Below, one piece after another: positions 57,015 through 60,400 of a DNA stretch of 64,000 nucleotides (the first letter of the stretch is position 1; every line of letters begins with the position of its first letter). Source of the stretch: Pedococcus bigeumensis (GTDB taxonomy: Bacteria > Actinomycetota > Actinomycetes > Actinomycetales > Dermatophilaceae). The translations under genes and the position numbers were made by a program. The stretch covers positions 372,001 to 436,000 of the forward strand of contig NZ_RCZM01000004.1 of assembly GCF_006438965.1 (NCBI RefSeq), read 5' to 3'. Below the pieces are notes generated by a model, which made no database searches, was not told where the DNA came from, and was given only the letters and a program-made list of their open reading frames with translations.

Positions 57015-58259
57015 ATGACCACGGACCTGCCTGAGCCCACGAGCGAGCGCCCCCAGCCGGGCCAGCTCACCTTCACCGCCCCGCGTCGTGGCAAGCCGCC
57101 GCGCCACCTCGCCGACCTGTCACCGGCCGAGCGCAAGGAGGCCGTCGAGGCATTGGGGCACAAGGGCTTCCGCGCCAAGCAGCTGTCGACGCACTACTTC
57201 GAGCGCCTTGTCGGTTCGCCCGACGAGATGACCGACCTGCCCAAGGCGATCCGCGACGAGCTCGTGGCCGACCTGCTGCCGACGCTATTGACCCCCCTCG
57301 TGCAGCGCACCGCCGACGACGGCATGACGATCAAGAACGCCTGGAAGCTGCACGACGGTGCCATCGTCGAGTCGGTCCTGATGCGCTACCCCCGGCGCGT
57401 CACCATCTGCATCTCGAGCCAAGCCGGCTGCGGAATGAACTGCCCCTTCTGCGCGACCGGACAGGCCGGGCTCACGCGCAACATGAGCGCCGCCGAGATC
57501 GTCGAGCAGGTCGTGTACGGCGCGCGGTTGCTGCGCAGCGGCGAGCTCGCCAAGGGCGTGGCCGGCTCTGGTTGGGCCTCGGCCCAAGGGGCCGCCGAGC
57601 TCGGTGACGAGGACGGTACGGAGGACGGCGAGGGCGGTCTGGCCGAGGCGACCGGACCCACCCGGATCTCCAACGTGGTGTTCATGGGCATGGGCGAGGC
57701 GCTGGCCAACTACAAGGCCGCGATCGGCGCGATCCGCCGGCTCACCGACCCCACGCCGGACGGCCTGGGGATGTCGGCACGGGGCATCACCATGTCGACG
57801 GTGGGTCTGGTCCCGGCGATCGACAAGCTGGCGGCCGAGGGCATCCCGGTCACCCTTGCGCTCTCGCTGCACGCACCCGACGACGAGCTGCGCGACGAGC
57901 TGGTGCCGATCAACACCCGGTGGAGCGTCGACGAGGCCCTCGACGCGGCGTACCGCTACTACGAAGCGACCGGTCGCCGGGTGAGCATCGAGTACGCCCT
58001 CATCAAGGACATCAACGACCACGCGTGGCGGGCCGACCTGCTGGGCAAGAAGCTCAACGCCCGGGGCCGCGGCTGGGTGCACGTCAACCCGATCCCGCTC
58101 AACCCCACCCCGGGGTCGAAGTGGACCGCCTCCCGGCCGGGTGTCGAGCAGCAGTTCGTCGAGCGCCTGCGGGCGCACGGCATCCCCACCACCATCCGCG
58201 ACACCCGTGGCCAGGACATCGACGGCGCCTGTGGCCAGCTCGCCGCCTCGACCGCCTGA
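57015..58259 (+). CDS. rlmN: 23S rRNA/tRNA adenine-C2 methyltransferase RlmN
   Basis: 414-residue radical SAM enzyme. The cluster motif CxxxCxxC is in [13 protein letters not shown], followed by [61 protein letters not shown] and [15 protein letters not shown] with the second catalytic cysteine. An acidic insertion of about 40 residues ([23 protein letters not shown]) lies between the cluster and the VFMGMGE strand. ATG at 57015. The intergenic gap before it holds one CGGCATAC word. Confidence 0.95.
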
Positions 58260-58304: not shown

Positions 58305-59486
58305 GTGATCCTGCGCGCGCGCCTGCTGGCAGCCGGGGCTGTCGTCCTGCTGCTTGCGGGGTGCGCCTCGACCGGTGCCGACCCCGAGCCCGCGGCCGCC
58401 AAGGCCACTCCGGCGCCCACCACCACGACGGCCGGCCACCAGCACCCCACGACGGCCGCGCCCCCGGAGGCTCCGCTGCGCAATGGGGAGCGCTTCGTCA
58501 CGCTCCGGATGCCCACGGCATACACCCCCAAGGCGCCGGCCGCACCGGGGACGGATGACTACCGCTGCTTCCTCCTCGACCCCGGTCTCACCGCCAAGAC
58601 CGTCGTGACGGGCATCAACGTGCTGCCCGGCAACCCGGACGTCGTGCACCACGTGATCCTGTTCCGCGTGCCGCCGGACAAGGTGGCTGCCGCGGAGGAG
58701 AAGGACCGGCTCCAGGTCGGCGAGGGCTGGACCTGTTTCGGCGGCACCGGTGTGGAGAGCCCGGGCGCGGGCCTCAACGGTGCGCCGTGGCTGGGTGCGT
58801 GGGCACCTGGCGGGGGTGAGCGGGTGCTGGCGCCCGACCTCGGTATGCCGGTCGAGGCCGGTTCCCGGGTCATCATGCAGGTCCACTACAACCTGCTGGC
58901 AGGGCGCTCGCCTGACCAGAGCGCCGCCAAGCTGCGGGTGGCTGCCGACGACGGCGCGCGCCAGACCCTGCAGACGGTGCTGCTCCCGGCGCCCGTCGAG
59001 GTGCCGTGTCGGCCCGGCAGGACCGGCCCGCTGTGCGACCGAGCGGCCGCGATGGCCGACGTCCAGAAGCGGTTCGGCAGCGCGGGCCGGACGGGGGACG
59101 CCCTGCACCTGCTCTGCCCGGAAGCCAAGGTGGGCCCGACCCAGACCTGCACCAGACCGGTGACCCAGGGGTCGACGATCCGTGCGGTGGCAGGGCACAT
59201 GCACCTGCTCGGCACGAAGATCTCGATCATCGTCAACAAGGGCAAGGCCAACGAGCGCACCGTCCTCGACATCCCGATCTGGGACTTCGACGACCAGGGC
59301 AGTCGCGCCGTGACCCCGGCTGTCCGGCTGCGGATCGGGGACACCCTCACGGTGTCGTGCACCCATGACCAGAGCCTGCGCGACAAGCTGCCGTCGTTCG
59401 CGGGGCAGCCCGAGCGCTACGTCGTCTGGGGTGAGGGCACCACCGACGAGATGTGCCTTGGCATCGTCATGGTCACCCGCCCGTAG
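58305..59486 (+). CDS. Lipoprotein related to copper type II (PHM/DBH-like) monooxygenases
   Basis: 393 residues. Signal peptide with lipobox LLAGC (Cys20), a Thr/Pro/His linker, then two beta domains. The PHM-type copper ligands can be traced: His115-His116 in DVVHHVIL and His194 in MQVHYN (first copper), His298/His300 in GHMHLLG and Met383 in TDEMCLG (second copper). Many cysteines suggest disulfides. PHM/DBH enzymes hydroxylate substrates with ascorbate and O2, but bacterial members are mostly uncharacterised. GTG start; TATGCT (58293-58298) is 6 bases upstream, so leaderless. It is alone between rlmN and purU. Confidence 0.82.
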   Translation: MILRARLLAAGAVVLLLAGCASTGADPEPAAAKATPAPTTTTAGHQHPTTAAPPEAPLRNGERFVTLRMPTAYTPKAPAAPGTDDYRCFLLDPGLTAKTVVTGINVLPGNPDVVHHVILFRVPPDKVAAAEEKDRLQVGEGWTCFGGTGVESPGAGLNGAPWLGAWAPGGGERVLAPDLGMPVEAGSRVIMQVHYNLLAGRSPDQSAAKLRVAADDGARQTLQTVLLPAPVEVPCRPGRTGPLCDRAAAMADVQKRFGSAGRTGDALHLLCPEAKVGPTQTCTRPVTQGSTIRAVAGHMHLLGTKISIIVNKGKANERTVLDIPIWDFDDQGSRAVTPAVRLRIGDTLTVSCTHDQSLRDKLPSFAGQPERYVVWGEGTTDEMCLGIVMVTRP

Positions 59487-59515: not shown

Positions 59516-60400
59516 GTGAGCGCCATCCCCGCCGTCGCTGCCGAGCCCGGCCGTGAGTTCGTCCTGACGGTCTCGTGTGCCGACCGACGTGGGATCGTGC
59601 ACGCCGTCTCGGGGGTGATGCTCGAGCTGTCGATGACGATCCTCGACAGCCAGCAGTTCGCCGATGTGAGGGCGGGGGAGTTCCACCTGCGGATGCACCT
59701 CGCGCGCGAAGGGTCGGCCCTGCCGGTGGCGGCCCTTGATGCCGCGATGGCAGACGTGGCAACCGAGTTCGCGATGACGTATGCCGCGCACGACCTGTCC
59801 CAGCGCCGGCGTGTGCTGGTCATGGTGAGCCAACATGGGCACTGCCTGAACGACCTGCTGTTCCGGGTCGAGAGCGGTTCGCTGCCCATCGAGGTGCCTG
59901 CGATCGTCTCCAACCACGAAGACTTCCGAAGTCTCGCCGAATGGCACGGCATCCCGTTCCACCACGTCCCGGTGACCCGCGACACCAAGCCCGCGGCGGA
60001 GGACGAGCTGCGGCGCCTGGTCGAGCACTACTCCGCAGACACAGTGGCACTGGCGCGCTACATGCAGATCCTGTCGAGCGGGCTGTGTGCCGACTTCCCC
60101 GGCCGGATCATCAACATCCACCACTCGCTGCTGCCGAGCTTCAAGGGGGCCAAGCCGTACAGCCAGGCGCACGACCGTGGGGTCAAGGTGATCGGGGCGA
60201 CGGCGCACTACGTCACGGCGGACCTCGACGAGGGACCGATCATCGAGCAGGACTTCCGGCGGGTGGACCACCGGATGAGCCCGGCCGAGCTGGCCTCGGT
60301 CGGTCAGGAGCTGGAGGCGATGGCGTTCTCCCGCGCACTGCGCTGGCACGCGGAGCACCGCGTCGTCCTCCGCGGCCGCCGCACGATCGTCTTCGACTGA
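59516..60400 (+). CDS. purU: Formyltetrahydrofolate deformylase
   Basis: 294 residues. PurU releases formate from 10-formyl-THF. The N-terminal ACT domain has LTVSCADRRGIVHAVSGVMLE and the catalytic formyltransferase-fold domain has RVLVMVSQHGHCLNDLL, IVSNHEDF, GRIINIHHSLLPSFKGAKPYSQA (His in HHSLLPSF) and GATAHYVTADLDEGPIIEQD. GTG with TAGGCT (59504-59509) 6 bases upstream, so leaderless. Convergent with the VOC gene. Confidence 0.95.
   Translation: MSAIPAVAAEPGREFVLTVSCADRRGIVHAVSGVMLELSMTILDSQQFADVRAGEFHLRMHLAREGSALPVAALDAAMADVATEFAMTYAAHDLSQRRRVLVMVSQHGHCLNDLLFRVESGSLPIEVPAIVSNHEDFRSLAEWHGIPFHHVPVTRDTKPAAEDELRRLVEHYSADTVALARYMQILSSGLCADFPGRIINIHHSLLPSFKGAKPYSQAHDRGVKVIGATAHYVTADLDEGPIIEQDFRRVDHRMSPAELASVGQELEAMAFSRALRWHAEHRVVLRGRRTIVFD

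Follow-up and report, generated by a model that had tools for sequence, protein, structure and literature searches.

The region analysed in this work, referred to below as the window, is a stretch of 64,000 nt from the Pedococcus bigeumensis contig NZ_RCZM01000004.1 (positions 372,001–436,000, forward strand). It contains an ORF of 393 residues (58305–59486, + strand) that starts with a GTG codon, hereafter the module gene, and in its product a lipoprotein signal is followed by a low-complexity linker up to about residue 55 and then by the globular part. The features of this gene and of its two direct neighbours are as follows:

57015–58259, + strand: rlmN, context gene ending 45 nt upstream of the module gene (gene calls, family search)
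58305–59486, + strand: whole module gene, PHM/DBH-type copper monooxygenase homologue of 393 aa (Pfam, AlphaFold model, VIA, PDB profile match)
58305–58364, + strand: lipoprotein signal peptide MILRARLLAAGAVVLLLAGC with lipobox LAGC, Cys20 codon at 58362–58364 (sequence)
58485–59000, + strand: predicted CuH (N-terminal) jelly-roll domain, residues 61–232, nine predicted strands (model and profile alignments)
58647–58652, + strand: predicted CuH ligands H115 and H116, equivalent to PHM H107 and H108 (profile alignments, hhalign, invariance)
58884–58886, + strand: predicted CuH ligand H194, equivalent to PHM H172 (profile alignments, hhalign, invariance)
59007–59150, + strand: insert, residues 235–282, with a long helix (246–270) and invariant C235, C244, C271 and C282 (model and alignments)
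59139–59483, + strand: predicted CuM (C-terminal) domain, residues 279–393, seven predicted strands of at least 3 residues (Pfam, model, profile)
59196–59204, + strand: predicted CuM ligands H298 and H300, equivalent to PHM H242 and H244, codons 59196–59198 and 59202–59204 (profile alignments, hhalign, invariance)
59451–59453, + strand: predicted CuM ligand M383 in the DEMC motif, equivalent to PHM M314 (hhalign, A4 profile, invariance)
59516–60400, + strand: purU (formyltetrahydrofolate deformylase), context gene starting 29 nt downstream (gene calls, family search)

The 4.2 Mb source genome yielded a single match to the window protein in a genome search, and the dN/dS of the module gene from residue 61 onward, as compared with six relatives from the genus, is 0.16–0.33. 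No Rfam family matched at its gathering score between 54000 and 62000, no promoters were found, and the one terminator-like site, which is on the opposite strand, is at chance level. The RlmN encoded upstream (57015–58259) carries a long acidic low-complexity insert, its TIGR00048 match falling in two stretches, and it reads GMGEAL, as does its relative in locus L075, at a site where we take GMGEPL to be the usual reading.

The Pfam model for the C-domain of the copper monooxygenases (PF03712) matched the window protein with an E value of 1.4e-7 (31.6 bits, above the cut-off of 23), and that for the N-domain (PF01082) with an E value of 2.9e-5 (24.7 bits, under the cut-off of 30). Besides these two copper domains, Pfam gave two weak matches (E 0.05 and 0.22), and no NCBIfam model matched at its cut-off. 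Relatives were compared in three alignments, A2 (48 rows) and the more diverse A3 (26 rows) and A4 (25 rows), and both Pfam models match all 26 members of A3 at E <= 1. In searches of the PDB, only the A3 and A4 profiles can be regarded as decisive. The single sequence gave chance matches, with ubiquitin-conjugating enzymes against the N-terminal linker among the matches listed, and the A2 profile reached DBH at an E value of 0.032. The best match of the A3 profile was DBH (E 4e-7), while the A4 profile recovered PHM (1opm; E 4.2e-8 over the whole chain, the six ligands, including that of the DEMC motif, being aligned) and DBH (E 5.9e-8). When the A4 match to 1opm is considered by piece, the i-Evalues are 0.0019 and 2.4, the second (C-domain) piece being weak alone, and hhalign with the PHM pieces gave an E value of 8.7e-9 for the N-domain and of 3.3e-4, with a modest probability of 38%, for the C-domain. 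The pairing of the C-domain ligands, weak by piece alone, is carried by the Pfam C-domain match together with the predicted fold.

In these alignments H115, H116 and H194 correspond to H107, H108 and H172 of the CuH site of PHM, and H298, H300 and M383 to H242, H244 and M314 of its CuM site, the PHM numbering being the 1opm chain index plus 44. The CuM ligands given for PHM (His242, His244 and Met314; PMC6123673) and the ligands given for DBH (His262, His263, His333, His412, His414 and Met487; PMC4846438) agree with the numbering used here. The initial annotation had traced six copper ligands in order, and this tracing is confirmed by their one-to-one correspondence with the solved PHM structure in the profile alignments and by their invariance in 48/48 (A2), 26/26 (A3) and 25/25 (A4) rows. 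Together with eight cysteines, the ligands are unchanged even in the most distant of the aligned relatives, at 28% identity. The spaced six-ligand pattern also fits 108/108 distinct homologues, which were derived from 151 loci by dropping seven (three with no hit at E 1e-30, three with an in-frame stop and one fragment without the YRCF anchor) and collapsing the remaining 144.

An AlphaFold2 model of the window protein, built on 48 sequences, has a pLDDT of 83.6 and a pTM of 0.80, with residues 1–46 under 50. PHM (E 7.3e-15) and DBH (E 2.3e-14) rank first when Foldseek is used with this model. The likeness to PHM that had been proposed for this protein is borne out by superposition with VIA, where the part of the model from residue 61 to 393 matches PHM 6ala (Z 23.7, rmsd 2.6 over 257) and the part from 54 to 393 matches DBH 4zel_A (Z 22.6, rmsd 2.8 over 266). 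The remaining PHM rows have Z of 18.5–22.4 and rmsd of 3.2–5.0, and the next family after PHM and DBH is PNGase, at Z 9.8. As 6ala is described as a citrate-containing H108A mutant of PHM whose C-subdomain is rotated toward its N-subdomain (PMC6123673), and chain A of 4zel as the closed form of DBH (PMC4846438), the model seems nearer to the closed domain arrangement. The two-jelly-roll core of PHM is present in the model. The two nine-strand domains expected in the initial annotation were recovered in part: the N-domain has nine strands, but only seven strands of at least 3 residues are listed for the C-domain, whose end corresponds to PHM residue 324 and which is on both counts shorter than that of PHM. 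Based upon the profiles and the model, the window ORF is confirmed as a member of the PHM/DBH copper monooxygenase superfamily with a complete set of predicted copper ligands.

The window protein has the lipobox LAGC at residues 17–20 of its signal sequence and is probably exported and lipid-anchored. A crude lipobox rule is passed by 91 of the 108 distinct homologues, and in some of those that miss it (e.g., L020, L067 and L068) a lipobox-like cysteine is still visible by eye. By the same inspection this cysteine is absent from L003, L004, L073, L080, L096 and the small genomes considered below, and L003 and L004 are among the closest relatives of the window protein. Predicted export is thus constant across the family, while predicted lipidation is common but not a family trait. 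The earlier description of a secreted, lipid-anchored protein stands for the window protein, with its export signal and LAGC, but its second half does not extend to the family.

Relatives of the window protein are present in 9 of 11 genomes of the same genus, its own included. Within the family, 56/186 genomes gave matches at E <= 0.001, three of them (G051, G062 and G142) in the signal/linker only, and within the class 32/296 genomes, the own genome counted, gave a match, with five weak matches in the signal/linker region (G365, G469, G542, G567 and G662). Such signal/linker matches, one of which extends to residue 116, were left uncounted as homologues. At the order and phylum levels the counts, 9/297 and 12/396 genomes (own counted in both) and 0/14 control genomes at each level, rest on PF03712, a model less sensitive than the search with the window protein. 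A pattern scan of named genomes found 321 relatives, and the best 80 of these 321, which were kept, are mostly from Nocardioides, Marmoricola, Knoellia, Phycicoccus and Tetrasphaera, with one from a bin labelled Acidobacteria. In a tree of 109 rows the sequences grouped mostly by family; Terrabacter, Intrasporangium and a Dermatophilaceae bin branched apart from other Intrasporangiaceae. A copy with 38–41% identity is present in four genomes of 1.3–1.5 Mb from another family of the same class, and its retention in genomes this small is notable. None of 45 pattern matches in viral contigs is a relative, and among plasmid records two queries each found one entry, the same chromosome-sized Nonomuraea record (48.5% and 48.2% identity). 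At L181 (4088–7253) a genome has two copies of the module gene, with a single oppositely oriented gene between them.

The description of the module gene as a lone gene beside housekeeping genes also held, its neighbours rlmN and purU both being on the same strand. Crude gene calls and clustering, applied to 80 named loci (the module gene being recovered in 77) and 11 more distant ones, did not find a partner gene common to the whole family. A conserved operon partner was rejected, as the 80 named loci yielded only housekeeping settings: the rlmN cluster is found in 23 of them (directly upstream in 16), as a run local to the Intrasporangiaceae, and the phoH cluster in 44 (directly downstream in 29), with a local run in Nocardioides where phoH (identified by Pfam) and a ybeY-like gene (by eye) lie beside the module gene. 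In the 11 more distant loci no gene except the module gene occurs in more than four, as judged from clusters of which at least one member lies no more than five genes away. Several Nocardioides loci share a cluster in which a Germane/Gmad2 gene (7859–8866 in L082), oriented against the module gene, lies close to it, and a sigma-factor-like gene, so labelled by eye, is often present in this neighbourhood.

Two observations argue against a clean verdict that no partner exists. An RNA-methyltransferase-like gene lies upstream on the module strand in L154, L156 and L159, which represent two families, and L154 and L156 additionally have a histidine-phosphatase-like gene there (both labels by eye). 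Further, L149 and L150, from two genomes of 1.3–1.4 Mb, have a long stretch in common. Here the module gene is followed immediately by a co-directional agmatinase-family gene (L149:8895–11013; L150:9160–11278), whose frame may share up to 20 nt with it according to which start codon is chosen, and then by a PLP decarboxylase gene in the reverse orientation (families checked in L149). L151 and L152, from the remaining two small genomes, do not have this neighbourhood.

Outside the class, the phylum-wide PF03712 search provided 11 genomes, and in six of them (G1074, G1067, G1021, G996, G791 and G841; loci L174–L179) a CASCH haem motif precedes the module in one ORF. All six fused proteins have cytochrome c matches, the best of each lying between E 1.7e-4 and 0.01 and all being below cut-off, and they are 28–34% identical to the window protein over the module. 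In L174–L177 a YceI domain is also present ahead of the module (Pfam E 3.9e-15 to 2.2e-23). Proteins of the YceI family bind isoprenoid lipids. A stand-alone module without CxxCH was found in G880, G920, G938 and G1053 (two copies in the last), and in G896 (L163) the pattern scan gave no readable module. None of the 144 class-level loci that were read contains a CxxCH motif, and the one YceI gene of the source genome is on another contig, unlinked to the module gene. Because a c-type haem segment and YceI are joined to the module in these distant relatives, it is suggested that the module receives electrons from haem rather than from ascorbate; for the window protein itself a haem donor would follow by analogy. 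Ascorbate as the reductant finds no support in the present results, and the haem-fused relatives point elsewhere. Cytochrom_B561 (PF03188) had no match in the source genome, and the controls were likewise without a match, so that this absence carries no weight.

The retention of the copper core and of its neighbouring residues, with a changed substrate grip, leads us to expect an extracytoplasmic hydroxylase of small substrates. We consider it likely, at a probability of roughly 0.7, that the window protein is exported and lipid-anchored and works as a dicopper monooxygenase with the PHM/DBH fold. Its lipid anchor would place it on the outside of the cytoplasmic membrane, and it would bind copper at the CuH (three His) and CuM (two His and one Met) sites. 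CuH would accept electrons from a haem or quinone donor on the membrane side, as the more distant fused relatives suggest, and CuM would activate O2 and hydroxylate a C–H bond of a small substrate other than a glycine-extended peptide. We know of no activity, copper content or substrate for any of the bacterial members considered here. The main rival is a non-catalytic copper-binding protein that would store, deliver or sense copper at the membrane. It would accord with the lack of a family-wide partner gene, with the loss of the substrate anchors of PHM and with a DUF305 gene three genes away from the module gene in L149. However, the invariance of the CuM methionine, of the DEMC motif and of Y86 and Q192, the counterparts of PHM Y79 and Q170 (all invariant in A4), seemingly goes beyond what holding a metal needs, and the haem-segment fusions in distant relatives suggest redox work, so that we regard this rival as unlikely.

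Two further alternatives follow the animal enzymes more closely. The fold and ligands, being as in PHM, could suggest a true peptidylglycine alpha-hydroxylase that starts bacterial peptide amidation. However, R240, N316 and Y318 of PHM, presumably the anchors of the peptide carboxylate, are replaced by A296, L385 and I387 in the window protein. All 26 rows of A3 have A/S/T/G at 296, L at 385 and I/V/L/M/T at 387, R, N and Y are absent from the respective positions in all 25 rows of A4, and in A2 a Y at 387 is found in 1/48 rows. As judged by these residues the window protein is not a peptidylglycine hydroxylase, and we hold this alternative to be highly improbable. No PAL lyase is fused to the window protein, and the direct neighbours of its gene are rlmN and purU. 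A DBH-like hydroxylase acting on an aromatic amine or a related small amine would fit with DBH heading the PDB matches of the A3 profile and with the agmatinase-family and PLP decarboxylase genes in L149 and L150. However, PHM and DBH tie with the A4 profile, the DOMON and dimerisation domains of DBH are absent, and that neighbourhood is missing from L151 and L152, and no such genes were visible by eye in a further set of loci. This alternative is doubtful to a marked degree, and the agmatinase-family neighbour provides a hint of nitrogen compounds in two small genomes only.

PHM and DBH are textbook signalling enzymes of animals, acting in peptide hormone finishing and noradrenaline synthesis, and they serve as a standard model of how two separated coppers activate O2. 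PHM is described as widespread in eukaryotes (PMC8812541), and in the table of copper proteins of a 2020 review PHM and DBM stand in the eukaryote column only (PMC7435645), so that the bacterial kind is missing from the bacterial copper inventory of that table. By a word search, the main text of PMC6529398 contains no word starting with bacteri or prokaryot, and no paper on a bacterial member was among the literature matches listed (titles and abstract starts). Neither a new fold nor a new kind of protein is described here, as the superfamily is known and Pfam models reach these proteins; what is new is that, in 6 of the 11 other-class genomes, a CASCH cytochrome-c segment and the module share one ORF, the segment coming first. 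With its intact copper core, altered substrate grip and apparent haem-fused forms, the bacterial branch would offer a simple and tractable system for the open question of the electron route to CuM, and a lead on the origin of animal PHM and DBH. More tentatively, and as a possibility rather than a probability, these proteins may form a separate bacterial CuH/CuM branch supplied with electrons by the respiratory chain, not by ascorbate, through a c-type haem, fused or on a partner, and the YceI (quinone-type lipid) domain, and hydroxylating a small substrate of the envelope or environment. If this is true, the ascorbate-dependent animal enzymes would have been rewired later from an older bacterial design.

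Among known systems, rat PHM (1opm, 6ala) shares with the window protein the fold, the six copper ligands and the equivalents of Y79 and Q170. Of the cysteines, which are invariant, C88/C144 and C352/C384 lie at the positions of PHM C81/C126 and C293/C315, pairs that we take to be disulfides in PHM. C232–C283 and C466–C488 of DBH (PMC4846438) are taken as their counterparts. No cysteine corresponds to PHM C114 in the A3-profile and hhalign alignments. The position of PHM C227 is occupied by C282, whereas the strand with C334, presumably the partner of C227, would lie beyond the end of the window protein, which has C235, C244 and C271 in its insert instead. PHM lacks this helical insert and its three additional cysteines, and the window protein differs from it also in being a bacterial lipoprotein. 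The spacing between H194 and H298 is 104 residues, as compared with 70 in PHM, and ranges from 104 to 122 across the 25 rows of A4; in view of this long spacing the cysteine-rich helical insert (235–282) is, as far as the alignments indicate, a mark of the bacterial branch. Human DBH (4zel) is similar in the fold of its catalytic core and in its ligands, but the window protein lacks its DOMON and dimerisation domains, starting with a lipoprotein signal and ending with the CuM domain. The models PF01082 and PF03712 (Cu2_monooxygen and Cu2_monoox_C) reach the family, although the N-domain score of the window protein is below cut-off. Lastly, the double jelly rolls of PNGase F and GH172 (DUF2961) have a distant fold in common with it (best Z of 9.8 and 6.6, respectively), and we take them to have no copper ligands and a different chemistry.
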